IMG/VR virus record: IMGVR_UViG_3300010885_008007
Span: 1-26,626 of that record
Length of the DNA stretch: 26,626 bases
Strand: one strand, 5' to 3'
Source of the DNA: a virus
The notes beneath the pieces are model-generated. The model worked only from the letters and a program-made list of their open reading frames with translations. It was not told where the DNA came from and did no database searches. Shown piece after piece: positions 1-12,222 of this stretch; within the stretch, counting starts at the first letter, position 1; the number at the start of each line of letters is the position of its first letter. The position numbers were made by a program, and so were the translations under genes.

Positions 1-675
1 AAACGACATTTCCCAATCGCCGGGCTGGACTATGCCTAACGCAATAGCGGTCATCAACATATCTTTGCCTTCGTTAATTGCCTTGTCAGCGGTTGAGGCA
101 ATAGAAGATCCCACTCGAGTCACTCCATTGATCTGCGCTGCTGATAAAGATTTATATGGCCGAAGGTGATGAACTCGGTAAGGCGCGTAATCTAATTGAG
201 CGGTGTGTGAGATCCAAGTAACGCCAGCGAACAAAGTTACTTCTCTTGCTAGTTGTTCTCCATATCCGCCGGTACAGTTCAAGATAGCGTCAGCCTCAAC
301 CTCAGATCCGTTACTTAACTCTACGCTTGACCGGTCAATACCAATCACGCGTTCAGTTATGTCTGGATTAAGTAAAGGTACGAGTGGGTCTACTAACCAC
401 CAATCTTTTTGCGCTTTAATCTCCGGGCTGCGCCAATTTGATACATAAGCCTCTTTTGATCCGGCTGCTCCCCAAGCGCTGTACCACTCCCACGATCTTT
501 CAAGATCGGCGCGTTCAGATTTACTGAACCAAGTAGGGCGAATAGTCGCCAAAGCGGATCGTGACGCAGCTTGTTCAGGTGCGTGGTCAATCAAAGTCAC
601 TTCCCAACCCTTGCTCCGGGCGATCCTTGTTGCTGATGATCCCGCGATCCCTGCCCCAATCACAATTAGTTTCAT
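1..675 (-). CDS. FAD-dependent amine/amino-acid oxidase-like protein, C-terminus beyond window
   Basis: The frame stays open for all 225 codons from ATG 675 to the window edge, so the C-terminus is missing. Residues 3-13 are a Rossmann beta strand followed by GAGIAG (GxGxxG), and about residue 28 an acidic residue ends the second strand (TLIDHAPE), the usual FAD ADP-binding layout. A second conserved patch, ADAILNCTGGYG near residues 128-139, resembles the conserved late strand of D-amino-acid-oxidase/MnmC-like flavoproteins. The start overlaps the stop of the upstream transferase gene (ATGA), so it is the last visible gene of the modification operon. In phage thymidine hypermodification, a flavoenzyme of this kind shortens an attached amino acid to an aminomethyl group; MnmC does the same chemistry on tRNA wobble uridine. 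The flavoprotein fold is well supported. The DNA-base role is inferred from neighbours. Confidence 0.82.
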   Translation of the reverse strand, partial: MKLIVIGAGIAGSSATRIARSKGWEVTLIDHAPEQAASRSALATIRPTWFSKSERADLERSWEWYSAWGAAGSKEAYVSNWRSPEIKAQKDWWLVDPLVPLLNPDITERVIGIDRSSVELSNGSEVEADAILNCTGGYGEQLAREVTLFAGVTWISHTAQLDYAPYRVHHLRPYKSLSAAQINGVTRVGSSIASTADKAINEGKDMLMTAIALGIVQPGDWEMSF

Positions 676-1550
676 CGCACCGCAATCTCTCGAGTTTGGC
701 TGTATACAGATTTACGGCTTTTGTCTATTCCTGTCCAACCGTTAAGTTCGCCTAAATAGTTATGAGGCAAAGTCTCGTATCTTGCCTTTAAAGCCCACTC
801 AGTCAGGTCAGAAGGAACGCGGTGTAATTGTTCTAACATTTCATCTATGTCTATGCCGACATAGTAACGCCCCTTTGTCATCGCATAGAAATCGCACAAC
901 GAGGTCTCGGCTGTCTCCATGCTGACTTGAGTAACTCTGCCTGTCAGGTATTTGACTACTTCGTTGCTAAGGTCATCAAGCTTCGTTATCTCGTCAGGAG
1001 AATTGCCCATAGGCAGACCCGGAAAAAATAAACCTAAGCCTTTGCGTGGCCCACTTGAGTTCGCATTACCCATGTCTGGCACTTCGAGATTGAACCCGTG
1101 GCTTTTGAGTAGGATCTCTGCCGTTTTGTAGGCAGCCCAACGCCCGTTACCGAACACAGTCGCTAACTCATCGTTGATCGTCTTCCAATTGACTATCGGA
1201 TCTTCTGAGGTACAGGCGCTATCTAGCCATGCGCCTAGACCGTCATGCTCATCTATCTTTCGGCACAAAGAGTCAAGGTGCTGAGCGAACTTTAATGTAG
1301 ATCTATGTGCCCGGCGAGGTTGTGCGATTGGTAGCTTGAGAGTCTCTTGATCCGGAACAGTAGGAACTGGATAAAGGCTAAACGCTTTAAGCGCTGACCC
1401 CATGTGATAGTAACCAACGAATAGAAATGTTAGCCACAATCCTTTATCTCTTTCTAACTGATCCGCAAACCATTTTAATACCGGATAAGCAGGATCCATG
1501 TCGCGTGATTGAGTTTGCGCTTCATGAAAATAAGCATAATCACTATTCAA
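672..1550 (-). CDS. Amino acid:DNA transferase-like protein (aGPT-pyrophosphorylase family)
   Basis: A 292-residue protein resembling the alpha-glutamyl/putrescinyl-thymine pyrophosphorylases, a DNA-glycosylase-related helical family that replaces an activated 5-hydroxymethyl pyrimidine substituent in DNA with an amine or amino acid. Visible blocks are FGNGRWAAYKTAE (about 133-145), DMGNANSSGPRKGLG (159-173) and a late block ETSLCDFYAMTKGRYY followed by GIDIDE (215-237). The family call comes from recall of these motifs plus context, not from an alignment. The start is TTG at 1550, 8 nt inside the dioxygenase gene, with AAGG about nine bases upstream; the alternative ATG (residue 18) has no clear ribosome site. 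It lies between a TET-like oxygenase and an FAD oxidase, as expected for a substituent-transfer step. No kinase for activating the hydroxymethyl group is in the window. Confidence 0.75.
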   Translation of the reverse strand: MNSDYAYFHEAQTQSRDMDPAYPVLKWFADQLERDKGLWLTFLFVGYYHMGSALKAFSLYPVPTVPDQETLKLPIAQPRRAHRSTLKFAQHLDSLCRKIDEHDGLGAWLDSACTSEDPIVNWKTINDELATVFGNGRWAAYKTAEILLKSHGFNLEVPDMGNANSSGPRKGLGLFFPGLPMGNSPDEITKLDDLSNEVVKYLTGRVTQVSMETAETSLCDFYAMTKGRYYVGIDIDEMLEQLHRVPSDLTEWALKARYETLPHNYLGELNGWTGIDKSRKSVYSQTREIAVR

Positions 1551-2430
1551 TCTTCTTTACCTTGCCAATTGTTGGCATATCTATCTCGCCTTTAAGCGCT
1601 CGCGCCATGTTGTCTTCTCGATTTGTTCGAGACTCTTTGCCTTTAGCCGTTTCTACTGCGTAAGTAAAACAATCTTTCATACCGCGCAAAGCATAATAAA
1701 CTATCGAATATCGGTAAGCGTCTTTGGTCTTTGGAGACATTGGAGTTACTCCGTGAACATATTTGTATCCGGCAAAGAAAGTCACCCAGCCGTCACGACA
1801 AGAACAAGTCAGATCGTACTCAGGCAAAGTGAGATACCCGCCAGACATATCTCTACGGATCACCGGCATCGCAGACCAAGTAGCGAAATTGAAGCCGTCT
1901 CGGTGATAAGGCAAAGTTGAAGACTTATTTACTACTCCGGAAGTCCAAAGCGCGTCATCTGTCATACGCCACTCATCAGATAATCCTGCGTTCTCAAGGT
2001 TTTTCTTATCGTTCTCGTATAGATCTGGAGCGAACTCTTTATAGAGCTGCGCAAACCTTTCAGCAAAAGCGATCAATACTGCGTGTTCGCTTGGCTGTTC
2101 TAACGCGAGGGTAGTTGGTCGGCAAGTCTCTCTGCGTTGGAATATCTTGCGTGGAGCCATTCCGAAAGTTCTTGATTTATTTTTGAGTCCACTTGATTGC
2201 CGGATTGTTTCACCGTAATTGATATTGAGAACTGCTGCTCGAAGAAGATTGACTTCTTGCTCCATTGGAAAATAGACAAATATGACTTCTTCTGTGTCTT
2301 CGTCAATCCAGATCCCTTCTTTATTACAAGTTGGTTCAAATTCTGGAACGGTAGTACCAACAAGTGCGCTTGCGTCTTCCTCGGTCATAACTCGTTTGAC
2401 TTTATAGACAGGTAACTCAGCTAAGTTCAT
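1543..2430 (-). CDS. TET/JBP-type 2-oxoglutarate/Fe(II) dioxygenase
   Basis: A 295-residue protein whose C-terminal half has the double-stranded beta-helix dioxygenase signature. H176 and D178 (LPYHRDGFNF) form the HxD pair, H226 (YVHGVTP) is the distal iron ligand, and R240 (AYRYSIVYY) is placed to bind 2-oxoglutarate. The sequence before HxD (SGVVNKSS) and the GGYLTLPEY strand match the TET/JBP nucleic-acid-modifying branch rather than prolyl hydroxylases. TET/JBP enzymes oxidise the methyl group of thymine or 5-methylcytosine within DNA. The N-terminal 150 residues are not recognised and could serve DNA binding. The start ATG overlaps the ParB-like gene by 14 nt, and the transferase gene overlaps its end. 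No DNA methyltransferase is visible in the window, so the substrate base is undetermined. Confidence 0.85.
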   Translation of the reverse strand: MNLAELPVYKVKRVMTEEDASALVGTTVPEFEPTCNKEGIWIDEDTEEVIFVYFPMEQEVNLLRAAVLNINYGETIRQSSGLKNKSRTFGMAPRKIFQRRETCRPTTLALEQPSEHAVLIAFAERFAQLYKEFAPDLYENDKKNLENAGLSDEWRMTDDALWTSGVVNKSSTLPYHRDGFNFATWSAMPVIRRDMSGGYLTLPEYDLTCSCRDGWVTFFAGYKYVHGVTPMSPKTKDAYRYSIVYYALRGMKDCFTYAVETAKGKESRTNREDNMARALKGEIDMPTIGKVKKIE

Positions 2431-3091
2431 TAACGGGTCTTTTCTCTCCTACGGCATTCTCCACAAGGCTCAATACCGCGTCAGAGTTGCTCGTAATATT
2501 ATTGGCTGTTCGATATTGGATTAGTTTATCAATCAACCATACATAAGTATCGTTGTCATAGTCCATCATCAACATACGCGTAGCCTTTTGAGCATAGCGT
2601 TCCGCATAATCTCCCAAAGTTGGAATGAAATGGACTCCGCTTTGCCCGGTATCTCCTACCTCTACTGAGGTGAAATAAGTTTGATCTGATAGAACAGGCA
2701 TTGTAGCTTCGTTCATCACCGCTAAGAGGCTGTCGTATTCCTCGAAGGTGTAGCCAGTTCCGTCTAACTCAGGCAAAGCCTCGAGAAGTTCTGCTAATTG
2801 TTTGTTGTCGTATGTTCCATTATCACTAGAACGATTATCAATAGCCACGATCTTTGCTGCGGTTATGTCGTCTACATGGACATAAACAACATCTATGTAA
2901 TCCCAGCCTAAAGTCTCCGCAGCTTGGTAAGTGTGGTTGCCGGCTAGGATTTCTCCGGTGTTGGCATTGACCGTAATAGGTTTATATTGACCATAACGCT
3001 TTAGCGAGTCAGCAATTAGATCTACATTACCTTTACGCGGGTTGTTCCGATATAACTTGAGGTCGCCTAGTAGTACCTGTTTGATCTCCAT
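2417..3091 (-). CDS. ParB/Srx-like nuclease-domain protein
   Basis: A 224-residue protein. The N-terminal 100 residues have the ParB/sulfiredoxin pattern: NNPRKGNVDLIADSLKRYG (about 16-34), KPITVN, then the box GEILAGNHTYQAAE (46-59) in place of the usual GERR motif, followed by acidic IAIDNRSSD-type sequence near 86-95. Such domains in phages may be nucleases, NTP-using switches or DNA-binding specificity subunits. They recur beside DNA base-modification enzymes. The remaining 120 residues have no recognised domain. The start is well defined by AGGAGG six bases before ATG 3091, and the downstream dioxygenase start lies within the 3' end of this gene, so the two are likely translationally coupled. 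Whether it cuts DNA or guides the modification enzymes is not decided by sequence. Confidence 0.75.
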   Translation of the reverse strand: MEIKQVLLGDLKLYRNNPRKGNVDLIADSLKRYGQYKPITVNANTGEILAGNHTYQAAETLGWDYIDVVYVHVDDITAAKIVAIDNRSSDNGTYDNKQLAELLEALPELDGTGYTFEEYDSLLAVMNEATMPVLSDQTYFTSVEVGDTGQSGVHFIPTLGDYAERYAQKATRMLMMDYDNDTYVWLIDKLIQYRTANNITSNSDAVLSLVENAVGEKRPVNELS

Positions 3092-3297: not shown

Positions 3298-3510
3298 CTA
3301 CGATTTGTTACGGGTTTCTCGTTTAATTCCGTAAGCGATAACTTCTGCTTCCCGATAATAAACATTACGGCCTAATTTCTTGACCCAAACGAGAGTCTTT
3401 CGGCTTTGGATCTGACGCAAATTATTCATATTGATCCCAAGATGCTGCGCTACTTCCGCAGAACTCATCAAGCCTTCTTCTTTTCCTAAAGGAACTTCTG
3501 AGATCACCAA
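3298..3510 (-). CDS. Excisionase/MerR-like helix-turn-helix protein
   Basis: A 70-residue protein with a winged helix-turn-helix of the excisionase/MerR N-terminal type: LMSSAEVAQHLGINMNNLRQIQ (about residues 14-35) followed by a wing-like VKKLGRNVYYREAEVIAYG. A small DNA-binding protein or regulator is the reasonable role; there is no integrase nearby to suggest true excisionase work. Start is uncertain: TTG 3510 has GGAGGAGG about seven bases upstream, GTG 3507 makes a GTGA overlap with the SSB stop, and ATG 3468 directly precedes the HTH. Confidence 0.7.
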   Translation of the reverse strand: MVISEVPLGKEEGLMSSAEVAQHLGINMNNLRQIQSRKTLVWVKKLGRNVYYREAEVIAYGIKRETRNKS

Positions 3511-3875
3511 GGCGCTACCTCCTCCTGCTGTCGAGGCTGAGCCTTTTTGCCTTCTTTAGGTATCACATAGATCTCAGCAGCGTTAATTTCAAGATTGGTC
3601 TTTTCCACGCCTTCTTTGTTCGTGTAGGTGGATTGCTTCCAAGATCCCACTACGAATACTTTGTCGCCTTTGCTCACTTGATCCACCAATTGTTCGGCTT
3701 TGTCTCCAAACTGGACTACGCGAAACCACATCGTGTCGCCGTCAATCCATTGTTCGCCTTGTTTTGTTCGTGGCGTGTAAGCGAGGCTGAATGTCGCCCA
3801 AGCTTTGTCTGCTTTTGAAAACTTTAGTTCTGGATCTGATCCGACATTACCTTTGATCTGAATTGGAATACTCAT
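3504..3875 (-). CDS. ssb: Single-stranded DNA-binding protein
   Basis: A 123-residue OB-fold SSB. The start MSIPIQIKGNVGSDPELKFS matches the bacterial SSB N-terminus, followed by TFSLAYTPR, TMWFRVVQFGDKAEQL and KGDKVFVVGSWKQSTY, the normal strand order. A short tail ends EEVAPW, resembling the acidic hydrophobic-tipped tail that recruits partner proteins. It coats single-stranded DNA during replication and recombination. Its ATG overlaps the HNH gene stop (ATGA), placing it in the same leftward operon. Confidence 0.93.
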   Translation of the reverse strand: MSIPIQIKGNVGSDPELKFSKADKAWATFSLAYTPRTKQGEQWIDGDTMWFRVVQFGDKAEQLVDQVSKGDKVFVVGSWKQSTYTNKEGVEKTNLEINAAEIYVIPKEGKKAQPRQQEEVAPW

Positions 3876-4204
3876 TTACCTTCTCCTAGCGTTGTAATAG
3901 AACCGTCATTGTGTAGTAATACGAAAAAAGAATTATGGTAAAGCATGGGTTGTTCTTCGGGATCTTTCCACGAAGGAGTCATCCAGCCTTTATCCTCAGC
4001 CTTCTCCGGATTGAGATGAATACTATCGGTGTTTAGATTATGGCAACCGTGATGTACCCGTATCAAATTAGCCGGCGTGTCTTTACCGCCCCGGCTTTTT
4101 AACTTCCTATGGTGTAAGGCCATAGACTCAGTAGCCGTACCACCGCAGCTTTCGCAGTAGTAGCCAGCCCTTAGCTCGACTATCTTGACTATCGCCTTAT
4201 CCAT
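3872..4204 (-). CDS. HNH endonuclease-like protein
   Basis: A 110-residue protein with an HNH core: zinc-knuckle CESC (17-20), LHHRKLKSRGGKD (H31-H32), N46 and HHGCHN (51-56). These provide the metal and catalytic residues of a beta-beta-alpha-metal nuclease. The C-terminal 50 residues are unrecognised. It is embedded in the early operon beside ssb, not next to a terminase, so a DNA metabolism or free-standing homing-like role is more likely than packaging. No sign of an intron. Confidence 0.85.
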   Translation of the reverse strand: MDKAIVKIVELRAGYYCESCGGTATESMALHHRKLKSRGGKDTPANLIRVHHGCHNLNTDSIHLNPEKAEDKGWMTPSWKDPEEQPMLYHNSFFVLLHNDGSITTLGEGK

Positions 4205-4222
4205 AAGCGCATAGTAATCTAT

Positions 4223-4309
4223 TTATTCGTCTTCGTCATCTTCCCACTCCGGCGGAGTCGAAGTCGGTGAGACCCAAACGCCCGGCGGAACTATCTCAAT
4301 AATACTCAT
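4223..4309 (-). CDS. Acidic 28-residue micro-protein
   Basis: A short open frame of 28 residues beginning MSIIEIVPPGVWV and ending PPEWEDDEDE. Its ATG shares a base with the stop of the upstream lysozyme-like gene (TGATG), a typical coupling arrangement. No homologue recognised. Support comes from the exact overlap and from filling the otherwise empty gap before the HNH gene. Confidence 0.5.
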   Translation of the reverse strand: MSIIEIVPPGVWVSPTSTPPEWEDDEDE

Positions 4310-7757: not shown

Positions 7758-8553
7758 TTTTTGTCTTTAAGATCTTCTTCAACTCCTCAGGCATGGGTAC
7801 TGATTTTGCTCGCTGCTCCTCGAGATCATCAAAGAAACGCTGACTAGCAACTCTTTCCTGCTCTGTTCTTTTGCGAGCTTCTAATGCCTCTCTCGCCGTC
7901 TTTTCTTCCTTTGTGGTCTCTCGGGCTGGCAAAGGTTCATCGTTCCACCTTGCCCCGTTTAACCAAGTCGCCGGGTATAAAGTGAATTGCTGAACCCGAT
8001 TCGGATCTTGGGCATAACGAGTCGCGCCCTGAATAATTATCTCAACCTCAACCTCATCTAAAGAGTTTATGAAAGATTGTTCCGCTTTTTTCTTGCCGAC
8101 TTTGAGAGGATAGACAGACCAGAATAATTCAAACCCGGGTGTTTCTAAGGGTGGTTCTAAAGGAAGGTTCTTAGGGCGTAAAAGTCGCCCCGTATCCGGC
8201 GTAAGAGTCGCCCCGTCTATGTCTTGAGAGTCGCCCCGTAGCTTGCGGGTAGTCTCTTTGTCGCCCCGTAATTTCAAGATCCGGATTGTGTAGCGGTGAG
8301 GCCGGCGATCTTCTCGACAAGTCGCTGACCCTCCCTTGTGCTTCTCCATACGGAGATAGCCCTCTTTACATAAATTATTGACGGCTCTCTGTACAGTACG
8401 GATCGAGACGGAGGCCTTCTTAGCAATAGTAGCTTGAGAAGGCCACGCCTCTGTTCCCTCATCGTTCGCGTGATCGGCTATGACAAGCAAGACCATTTTC
8501 TCCACCGTTGGAAGATCGGTACGCCAAACTTCCGACATGAGGCGAATACTCAT
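7741..8553 (-). CDS. Replication initiator / replisome organiser-like protein with HTH
   Basis: A 270-residue protein. Residues 7-70 form a winged HTH common in phage replication proteins (SEVWRTDLPTVEKMVLL, then PSQATIAKKASVSIRTVQRA and VNNLCKEGYL). The second half has FELFWSVYPLKVGKKKAEQ (about 141-159), a motif seen in replisome-organiser C-terminal domains, and a charged coiled-coil tail. It probably binds the origin and recruits the host helicase. The linker between the domains (residues about 95-123) is encoded by DNA carrying four iteron-like repeats, the lambda-O arrangement of an origin inside the initiator gene. ATG 8553 overlaps the WhiB stop. Confidence 0.78.
   Translation of the reverse strand: MSIRLMSEVWRTDLPTVEKMVLLVIADHANDEGTEAWPSQATIAKKASVSIRTVQRAVNNLCKEGYLRMEKHKGGSATCREDRRPHRYTIRILKLRGDKETTRKLRGDSQDIDGATLTPDTGRLLRPKNLPLEPPLETPGFELFWSVYPLKVGKKKAEQSFINSLDEVEVEIIIQGATRYAQDPNRVQQFTLYPATWLNGARWNDEPLPARETTKEEKTAREALEARKRTEQERVASQRFFDDLEEQRAKSVPMPEELKKILKTKTPTKR
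8184..8269. repeat. Four iterons of GTCGCCCCGT, candidate replication origin
   Basis: Identical 10-mers start at 8184, 8207, 8230 and 8260 (spacings 23, 23 and 30), all in the same orientation. The 23-base spacing puts copies in different reading frames of the gene: two encode RGD, one DGAT, one TGRL. Selection therefore acts on the DNA, not the protein. Position within the initiator gene fits an iteron origin. Confidence 0.7.
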
Positions 8554-8891
8554 TTAGATCCTTTCGGCAAGCAGCTCTGTACCTGTTCCTTGGTGATCCC
8601 GTAACTCTCGAGATCAAAGAGCGCTCGCCTTCGCTGAGCCGGGTACAACTTGGGGAAGATCATCGCCTTTCTTTCCACACTCGTCAAACCTCCCCATACT
8701 CCGTAACTTTCGTATTGGAAGGCGTAACTTAAACAAGCATTGTAAATAGGGCAGCGAGCGCAGATAGATCTAACGGCATTTATGTAGTTATACGCGTGGG
8801 CGTTTCTTTCTTCCTCCACCGAATAAAACATTTCGTTATATGTATCAAAGCAAGCTGCTTGATCCCAATTTACTTCGCGGTACTCGGGCAT
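8550..8891 (-). CDS. whiB: WhiB-family iron-sulfur transcription factor
   Basis: 113 residues from ATG 8891, chosen because GGGGAG lies just upstream; the frame extends to 8924 inside the preceding gene. C14, C44, C47 and C53 give the C-x29-C-x2-C-x5-C [4Fe-4S] ligand set of WhiB proteins, followed by GVWGG (64-68) and TSVER. These proteins bind the principal sigma factor of actinobacteria. In phages they can redirect host transcription or act as superinfection factors (known from mycobacteriophage TM4). It overlaps the nuclease gene by 22 nt and the initiator gene by 4. Confidence 0.95.
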   Translation of the reverse strand: MPEYREVNWDQAACFDTYNEMFYSVEEERNAHAYNYINAVRSICARCPIYNACLSYAFQYESYGVWGGLTSVERKAMIFPKLYPAQRRRALFDLESYGITKEQVQSCLPKGSK

Positions 8892-9541
8892 CCAATCTCC
8901 CCTGTCGGATCGTAGTAAGAACAATATTTAGAGCAGAACGCTACTCGCTCTTCCGGAACTGGCGCAGGTTTATCCTCGGCAATTCCTTCTCTGATTGAGT
9001 CCAACCACACTAAAGCTGTGTTAGCAATTTGCTCATCATACGGTTCTCGGTGTACCCGAATATCCAACATTTCTCCGTCACGCGGGATCGCCACAAGAGA
9101 GACCTCTTTAACATCGTAACCGTTCTGCGCCAATAGCCAGCCGTACACTTGTACCTGCCAGCGCTGCTGCTCAGAAGGGAAGTAGCGTAATGATTTCACT
9201 TTAGTGGTCTTCCAATCCACCACTATTCCTTGATCTTTGATGAATAGGTCTATGTGACCTTTCATGCTCCCGGAACTCACCTCGATCTCGGTAAAGAAAT
9301 TATCGCCAAACGGATCTTCCCTTCTGATTGACTCCTCTATCCCGCTATGGATAAAAGTGCCAAGTATCGCAGCCAGCGATTCAGTATTGAGATTGGTTTT
9401 TTCCGTCAGCTTGAGGTCGTGATAGACGCGTCTACGACATCCACCCAGACTACTTGGCCCAATCTCAACTTGTTGCGAACGATCTCTTTGCTCGTCAAAT
9501 CCTTTTAGAGATTTTGTTAGCAAATCATGTAAATCAGTCAT
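8870..9541 (-). CDS. Cas4/RecB-like PD-(D/E)XK nuclease
   Basis: 223 residues from ATG 9541 (GAGG six bases before; an ATG at 9553 would add four residues). Order of motifs: C35 (LGGCRRR), H65 with E70 (GTFIHSGIEE), D98 (GHIDLFI), D109-W-K111 (VVDWKTTK) and QxxxY (QVQVYGWL). Three C-terminal cysteines (C203, C207, C218) complete a Cas4-type four-cysteine iron-sulfur site. Such phage enzymes resect DNA ends and would supply single strands to the annealing protein at 10713-11270 and to SSB. No CRISPR array is present, so this is not a Cas context. Confidence 0.88.
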   Translation of the reverse strand: MTDLHDLLTKSLKGFDEQRDRSQQVEIGPSSLGGCRRRVYHDLKLTEKTNLNTESLAAILGTFIHSGIEESIRREDPFGDNFFTEIEVSSGSMKGHIDLFIKDQGIVVDWKTTKVKSLRYFPSEQQRWQVQVYGWLLAQNGYDVKEVSLVAIPRDGEMLDIRVHREPYDEQIANTALVWLDSIREGIAEDKPAPVPEERVAFCSKYCSYYDPTGEIGCPSTAK

Positions 9542-11407: not shown

Positions 11408-11605
11408 ATGGCAGCTCGAGTCCATATAAGCCTATACAACTTGATCGTTGAGTTAGAGACCGATACAGCGTATCCGGATCAACTAACGGACATGGCTAAT
11501 CGCACTCTCAACTTATTTCAGAATGCCGTCTTGACCGCTAAAGAGACCGGCATAGATATTACGGATATGGAATTGCTGGATCTCGAAGATGACGAAGACG
11601 ACTAG
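11408..11605 (+). CDS. Small acidic protein on the opposite strand
   Basis: 65 residues from ATG 11408, chosen over 11384 because AAGGAG lies just upstream. Begins MAARVHISLYNLIVELETDT, has a helical middle, and ends with an acidic run (LLDLEDDEDD). The only well-supported plus-strand gene here. Its stop overlaps that of the convergent acetyltransferase gene by three to four bases. The acidic tail suggests protein binding; function unknown. Confidence 0.72.
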   Translation: MAARVHISLYNLIVELETDTAYPDQLTDMANRTLNLFQNAVLTAKETGIDITDMELLDLEDDEDD

Positions 11606-12222
11606 AACATAAACTCACGCAACCACGATTTGCCGGCTGCGTTGATAGCGTCTTGAGTCTTAGTGCGCTTCTTGTCTCCCCATGAATAATTCTCCAACCC
11701 CTCAGGGATCAATTTCTTTATAGTCTTTGCCGGAGGTAGAGCTTCTAACGGGTGATCTATCGCAAAGTCTCGGTAGGCCAGTTGTTCTGATCGAGTAGCG
11801 AACAAAGGTTGATCGGATCTCAAAGACCCCGAAGGATCTACCGCCCACCAAAGCAATCCATTTCGCTGATGCCATGTGATTGAACTAGGGGTACAAGACA
11901 TCTTTAAGCGAGTCACCCCGCGTTCTACTGCGTAGCTTGTCCAAATATCCCAAATCCGAGACGCGTATCCATTTCCTTCTTGACCTTGAATCGTGACTAT
12001 TTCGTACAAGTTCGAATAGGTATCGCGATTGTAAGTAGCAAAGATCAACGAAACTATTTCTCCATTGACTTCGTAGGCCATTGGAGGGTTCTTGTCATAG
12101 TTCTTGAAGCGATACCAAAGAGAGTGAGCGGAAGAAAGAAACTTGGTATTAGATCCTTTTTGTGAGGTGGCTACGATTGTCTCTACTTCGGCAAAATTAA
12201 GAAACTTAATAGCCTCACTCAT
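11602..12222 (-). CDS. GNAT-like N-acetyltransferase
   Basis: 206 residues. Strands around GEIVSLIFATYN and LYEIVTIQGQ lead into EGNGYASRIWDIW (82-94), matching the acetyl-CoA-binding loop RGxGYA and helix of GNAT enzymes with glutamate at the usual arginine/glutamine position. A second strand (GVTRLKMSC) and HQRNGLLWW (118-126) fit motif B. The C-terminal 80 residues are unrecognised. In thymidine hypermodification of some phages, a GNAT acetylates the aminomethyl base; because this phage also carries the transferase and flavoenzyme, that substrate is attractive but unproven. The upstream metallophosphoesterase TAA directly abuts its ATG. Confidence 0.62.
   Translation of the reverse strand: MSEAIKFLNFAEVETIVATSQKGSNTKFLSSAHSLWYRFKNYDKNPPMAYEVNGEIVSLIFATYNRDTYSNLYEIVTIQGQEGNGYASRIWDIWTSYAVERGVTRLKMSCTPSSITWHQRNGLLWWAVDPSGSLRSDQPLFATRSEQLAYRDFAIDHPLEALPPAKTIKKLIPEGLENYSWGDKKRTKTQDAINAAGKSWLREFMF

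Follow-up and report, generated by a model that had tools for sequence, protein, structure and literature searches.

The stretch of DNA analysed here, referred to as the window, is a 26,626-nt virus record (IMGVR_UViG_3300010885_008007), whose left 3.1 kb carries on the minus strand a cassette of four overlapping genes encoding a ParB-like protein, a TET/JBP dioxygenase, an amino acid:DNA transferase (ADDT) and a flavoenzyme. With a probability of roughly 0.78, this cassette is read as a phage DNA-modification pathway that would act on finished DNA, with TET as the first enzyme, and that would convert thymine in turn into a hydroxymethyl, a phosphate and an amino acid derivative, the last of which would be trimmed. 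The purpose of such a pathway is most likely anti-restriction. The genes of the cassette are as follows:

2417..3091, minus strand: ParB-like protein, 224 aa; first gene of the cassette, with a good ribosome-binding site (AGGAGG)
1543..2430, minus strand: TET/JBP 2-oxoglutarate/Fe(II) dioxygenase, 295 aa; 14-nt overlap with the ParB-like gene
672..1550, minus strand: ADDT (formerly aGPT-Pplase2), 292 aa; TTG start, 8-nt overlap with the TET gene
1..675, minus strand: DAO-superfamily flavoenzyme; 4-nt overlap with the ADDT gene, 225 aa up to the window edge, which removes the C-terminus

Protein families of the cassette

All four open reading frames, transcribed in the order ParB-like gene, TET, ADDT and flavoenzyme, are present and belong to the families claimed for them in a preliminary description of this DNA. 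Since the same gene order was seen again in tens of viral contigs, chance can be excluded for the cassette, and dN/dS values of 0.05-0.07 for the TET, ADDT and FAD genes, measured against the nearest complete relative, show that these genes are constrained. The profile search that had been proposed as a check on the TET/JBP assignment was indeed positive, with the protein matching PF12851 (Tet_JBP) at an E value of 7.7e-11 and 41.9 bits, above the gathering cut-off of 34.9. The HxD...H iron triad and the 2-oxoglutarate-binding Arg correspond to H176, D178, H226 and R240, exactly the positions given beforehand, and all four residues are invariant in 28 diverse TET relatives with identity down to ~42%. 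An AlphaFold2 model (pLDDT 79.5) adopts the TET-type double-stranded beta-helix fold, with human TET2-DNA as its best structural match (Z 18.7), CMD1 (17.6), NgTET1 (17.5) and CcTet also falling in the range of Z 16-18.7, and AlkB/FTO structures scoring at most 15.0, below the TET-family structures, while in Foldseek the TET family occupied all of the top 26 rows. The activity proposed for this enzyme is hydroxylation of thymine in DNA at its 5-methyl group. Many RefSeq actinophage TET genes (e.g. NC_042034, NC_022061, NC_047987), as well as PHROG 6059, are labelled 'queuine tRNA-ribosyltransferase', an identity that is ruled out for the TET gene by profile, residues and fold.

The ADDT protein matched PF18724 with an E value of 3.6e-17 and 63.3 bits (cut-off 26.2), and its family profile retrieved from the PDB the entries 25qc, 'Amino acid:DNA transferase' (E 2.5e-17), and 8z2m, 'Glycinyltransferase' (E 4.8e-10). 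The same family includes gp51 of Pseudomonas phage M6, to which it aligns by hhalign with an E value of 1.1e-15 over most of its length. The earlier call of an aGPT-pyrophosphorylase-like protein at 672-1550 hence leads to ADDT and not to an unrelated family. This transferase is proposed to displace the phosphate of 5-phosphomethyl-deoxyuridine (5-phosphomethyl-dU) by an amino acid. The flavoenzyme, with a conserved GxGxxG, matched PF01266 (DAO) with an E value of 2.5e-11, above the gathering cut-off, and the best of 45 PDB matches of its family profile were 8z2o/8z79, 'Flavin-dependent lyase' (E 3e-9). Flavin-dependent-lyase-like enzyme is a better description than the earlier term FAD oxidase. 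It is proposed to be a flavin-dependent lyase trimming the added amino acid. The ParB-like protein scored just under the Pfam cut-off against PF02195 (ParB_N, E 6.3e-5) and strongly against the PHROG ParB families (E 3e-46, PHROG 723). It is a DNA-binding protein of the ParB_N/sulfiredoxin-like type, its gene sits before TET in nearly all relatives, and it may target or regulate the modification enzymes on DNA.

What lies beyond position 1 could be read in two relatives, namely L003, which is 97% identical to the window, and G001, a 41,333-base contig colinear with the window, which carries an exact 123-base terminal repeat and hence is a complete genome. Both continue with an intact flavoenzyme gene (in L003 at 3479-4291, 270 aa), a P-loop kinase of family PF18751 (E 1.6e-26 in G001) and a likely small terminase, followed in G001 by the large terminase. 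A 5-hydroxymethyl-dU kinase had been suggested as a gene to look for on this side, and the P-loop kinase is found there directly downstream of the flavoenzyme. Since it is seen in both L003 and G001, the PF18751 kinase is presumably present in the window phage too. Other PF18751 kinases (L082:3330-3869, L085:1802-2377, L088:3761-4333) are annotated 'terminase small subunit', and elsewhere 'adenylate kinase'.

Source of the hydroxymethyl group and the proposed pathway

Six-frame profile searches were applied to 27 records, consisting of the window together with 18 related viral contigs, G001 among them, and eight complete cultured phages. Neither a hydroxymethylase of the thymidylate synthase (TS) family nor ThyX was found in any of these TET-phage records (0/27 each), leaving a nucleotide-pool route to hydroxymethyl-dU without a gene of either family there. 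The same TS-family search was positive with phage M6 (5e-20) and Salmonella phage ViI (8e-16), in neither of which TET was found, so that no member of the sets tested has both TET and TS. This distribution argues that TET replaces the nucleotide hydroxymethylase, and the earlier contention that the hydroxymethyl group is made in finished DNA rather than before replication is well supported, its chemistry being inferred. Pfam and PHROG scans of the window revealed, among replication genes, a lambda O/DnaD-like initiator, a single-stranded DNA-binding protein (SSB) and exonucleases, and no DNA polymerase, which suggests that the phage DNA is made by the host with ordinary thymine.

The following sequence of reactions is proposed. 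On phage DNA synthesized by the host replisome, TET would act first, hydroxylating thymine at its 5-methyl group to yield 5-hydroxymethyl-dU, with the ParB-like protein probably guiding TET or the later enzymes on DNA. The P-loop kinase would then generate 5-phosphomethyl-dU, in which ADDT would exchange the phosphate for an amino acid, most likely glycine, bound via its amino group. Finally, the flavoenzyme would cleave this adduct oxidatively, most likely giving 5-aminomethyl-dU and glyoxylate. By analogy with solved relatives, the final product is thus most likely 5-aminomethyl-dU, reached via an N-glycinyl intermediate. For the window phage, we infer all of these reactions, as well as the thymine substrate, the use of glycine, the final product, the specificity of the kinase and the role of ParB.

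The variable slot behind ParB and TET

Among 80 viral loci with TET, 75 extend to the packaging genes and were compared. The ParB-TET pair is nearly constant across them, while the slot that follows is variable, containing ADDT with FAD enzyme and kinase, ADDT with kinase, a second ADDT type with a pyridoxal phosphate (PLP)-like protein and kinase, TAGT glycosyltransferases, a two-gene module of the families c8 and c9, the family c23, the kinase alone, or nothing. On the TET tree, these modules need at least 24 changes. The kinase accompanies ADDT in all 37 loci that carry the latter and is found in none of the 25 glycosyltransferase-type loci (Fisher 7e-18), a group in which c23 was placed as a putative glycosyltransferase by a look at its sequence; dereplication at 80% TET identity left nine versus eight loci with p 4e-5. 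The TAGT module of one slot type matches PF20691 slightly under the cut-off. Family c8, present at L034:4765-5691 and in 13 other loci, has no Pfam match and is always followed by a HAD-like gene of 148-188 aa, and its model (pLDDT 89.7) is closest to the T4 beta-glucosyltransferase (Z 21.9), with the T4 alpha-glucosyltransferase next (18.7). The T4 enzymes are DNA glucosyltransferases for hydroxymethyl bases. PDB searches with sequence profiles of c8, c23 and c17 gave no hits; c17 has a weak sequence similarity, of a PLP-enzyme-like kind, to M6 gp52. No glycosyltransferase is linked to the cassette of the window, sister phages having it instead of ADDT and kinase.

Variation is also observed within the amino acid branch. 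In FAD-less relatives with 76-84% identity in TET, ADDT is different, with 40-43% identity, whereas in most FAD-bearing relatives at similar TET identity it is ~80% identical, indicating that the transferase and the trimming enzyme tend to be swapped together. An Asp/Arg-hydroxylase-like dioxygenase lies between ADDT and kinase at L069:5184-6266 and L088:2656-3759 (44% mutual identity), which suggests a hydroxylated amino acid adduct in these two. Contigs of Brevibacterium and Corynebacterium, presumably prophages, also carry TET and ADDT genes (L092:5911-9603 and L091:6348-7745, respectively), and in the Brevibacterium contig two tandem DAO-like genes lie behind them.

The simplest reading of the slot is that TET would make a hydroxymethyl handle to which sugars can be joined directly, while amino acids require its prior phosphorylation. 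On balance we lean towards a freshwater actinophage lineage with a shared ParB-TET writer and a swappable slot, holding either a sugar module (TAGT, T4-BGT-fold or glycosyltransferase-like) or phosphorylation and amino acid modules, in which ADDT would act with an FAD lyase, a putative PLP enzyme or a second dioxygenase, or alone.

Competing readings, known systems and significance

Several observations weigh against the TET-first thymidine pathway. The match of the flavoenzyme to 8z2o spans mainly the N-terminal 160 residues, and PF18751 differs from PF18748, the family of the M6 5-hydroxymethyl-dU kinase, the profile link between them being mostly the P-loop. Correction of the slot associations for the TET tree leaves few independent pairs, too few for significance, which all have the same direction, with a median p of 0.25 for ADDT-kinase and 0.06 for glycosyltransferase-kinase. 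Furthermore, ParB, TET and kinase occur without ADDT in L053, L056, L062, L066, L085, L086 and L089, which the scheme leaves unexplained; in phages of this type, a whole-record search of G011, G012, G013 and three isolates found no ADDT, and their final base is perhaps phosphomethyl-dU. Lastly, the ADDT+FAD relatives G008 and G010 also have pieces of a C5-cytosine methylase, hence cytosine substrates are possible in these two.

The alternative that survives best overlaps with the proposed pathway as a variant of it and is given about one chance in three: the adduct would be other than glycine, or the modification would stop at the amino acid stage, with the flavoenzyme performing another oxidation. 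The strong divergence of ADDT between FAD-bearing and FAD-less phages speaks for the use of different amino acids, and the tailoring gene varies among isolates, being a DAO enzyme, a 290-aa DAO-like or an Asp/Arg-hydroxylase-like protein; on the other side, the closest solved relatives of the flavoenzyme carry the name flavin-dependent lyase, and a glycinyltransferase is among those of ADDT.

An unlikely alternative takes cytosine as the substrate, in a variant of the TET-initiated cytosine pathway that Burke et al. (2021, PNAS) reportedly described in other phages. TET would then oxidize 5-methylcytosine to 5-hydroxymethylcytosine, for decoration by kinase, ADDT and flavoenzyme. The PDB fold neighbours of TET do act on 5-methylcytosine, and C5-methylase matches occur in four of the 27 records, two of them of the ADDT+FAD type. 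However, no C5-cytosine methylase was found in the window, in the complete G001 or in the eight complete cultured relatives, and the known precedents for ADDT and flavin lyase lie in thymidine pathways. A C5-methyltransferase had been listed among the genes to be sought left of the window; the complete relative and the eight isolates thus gave a negative answer, qualified by the four matching records. The matches at G008:C1:29723-30915, G010:C1:15657-17339 and G013:C1:27569-28556 are in two pieces, one with internal stops.

Less credible still is that, as in M6 and ViI, the nucleotide pool supplies hydroxymethyl-dU, with TET engaged elsewhere, in further oxidation or on RNA. The thymidine hypermodification phages described do use incorporation of 5-hydroxymethyl-dU (PMC6449724), and the window is only a fragment of a genome. 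Against this, the TS and ThyX searches were negative in all of the related records, with M6 and ViI as positive controls for TS, and TET and TS exclude each other in the tested sets. Nor is the host dTMP synthase known to produce hydroxymethyl-dUMP. Modification of RNA instead of DNA, to which the RefSeq label on the TET genes would point, is highly improbable, as that label is contradicted by profile and fold, and the cassette adjoins terminase and packaging genes and has as its alternate a DNA glucosyltransferase family of the T4-BGT fold.

Compared with known systems, the cassette of this predicted thymidine pathway has one of its closest counterparts in the mycobacteriophages Phelemich and Reprobate, whose gp1-gp5 follow the same order of ParB, TET, ADDT, FAD enzyme and PF18751 kinase ahead of the terminase (the kinase was checked in Phelemich), with 30-47% protein identity to the window and a Mycobacterium host. 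Their records name these products queuine transferase, hypothetical, oxidoreductase and terminase small subunit and propose no modification. Rhodococcus equi phage Tonitrus resembles the window in having ParB, TET-like, aGPT-Pplase2 (ADDT) and kinase genes (PMC11955845) and differs in that, in place of the DAO-type lyase, a relative of MakoManhole gp5 (293 aa) is encoded after the kinase. From these families, the 2025 genome note on Tonitrus proposes, as a suggestion only, a thymidine hypermodification system (PMC11955845). Phages of Gordonia, Rhodococcus and Microbacterium have cassette variants with other flavoenzyme-like genes, and in LilMcDreamy and L069 the Asp/Arg-hydroxylase-like dioxygenase is inserted. 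As in M6/ViI-type systems, ADDT and a tailoring enzyme are present in the cassette; M6 and ViI combine ADDT, kinase and tailoring enzymes working on 5-hydroxymethyl-dU in DNA (PMC6449724), as would the cassette with its putative kinase, but have a TS-family enzyme and no TET, and M6 differs further by its PLP and radical-SAM genes and its PF18748 kinase. The described thymidine hypermodification phages start from hydroxymethyl-dU incorporated at replication (PMC6449724), and citations of phage TET activity in the literature found concern cytosine.

The glycinyltransferase 8z2m and the flavin-dependent lyase 8z2o (Nalpha-GlyT / 5-NmdU enzymes) are among the best PDB relatives of the ADDT/FAD pair, at distant sequence similarity. 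These entries we take to be the enzymes of Wen et al. 2024, a study cited in PMC11946847. Burke et al. (2021, PNAS) reportedly described TET-initiated C5-cytosine hypermodification in phages, a system that resembles the cassette in creating a phage TET handle in finished DNA for subsequent tailoring and differs in its cytosine substrate. TET-linked operons are also said to have been predicted computationally by Iyer et al. (2013, NAR). In the searchable literature, several key papers being outside its reach, no experiment demonstrating a TET-first route of thymidine hypermodification was found, and the cassette stands, on its sequence, as a predicted route of this kind. The novelty implied in the preliminary description was overstated, since the same cassette occurs in cultured actinophages and the Tonitrus note proposes such a system (PMC11955845).

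Shortly upstream of the cassette lie genes for an HNH endonuclease (3872-4204) and SSB (3504-3875). A GNAT-like gene at 11602-12222 was discarded as a member of the pathway, its match being weak and below the cut-off, without a PHROG match, and its position far from the cassette. The window also carries at 8550-8924 a gene for a WhiB-like regulator, which is indicative of an actinobacterial host. All of the nearest cultured relatives infect Actinobacteria, and a relative at 80% was found in a metagenome-assembled genome of Actinomycetota; from these three lines, the host is likely actinobacterial.

Physiologically, a TET-first route would spare the phage any control over nucleotide pool and polymerase, would fit small 40-kb phages dependent on the host replisome, and could restrict the mark to chosen thymines. 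As Mycobacterium smegmatis isolates carry the same genes, the idea is open to ordinary nucleoside mass spectrometry. If it is true, a thymine-hydroxylating TET combined with the aminating enzymes would allow one-pot placement of amines at thymines in ordinary DNA, and the swappable slot would amount to a combinatorial library of DNA bases provided by nature.

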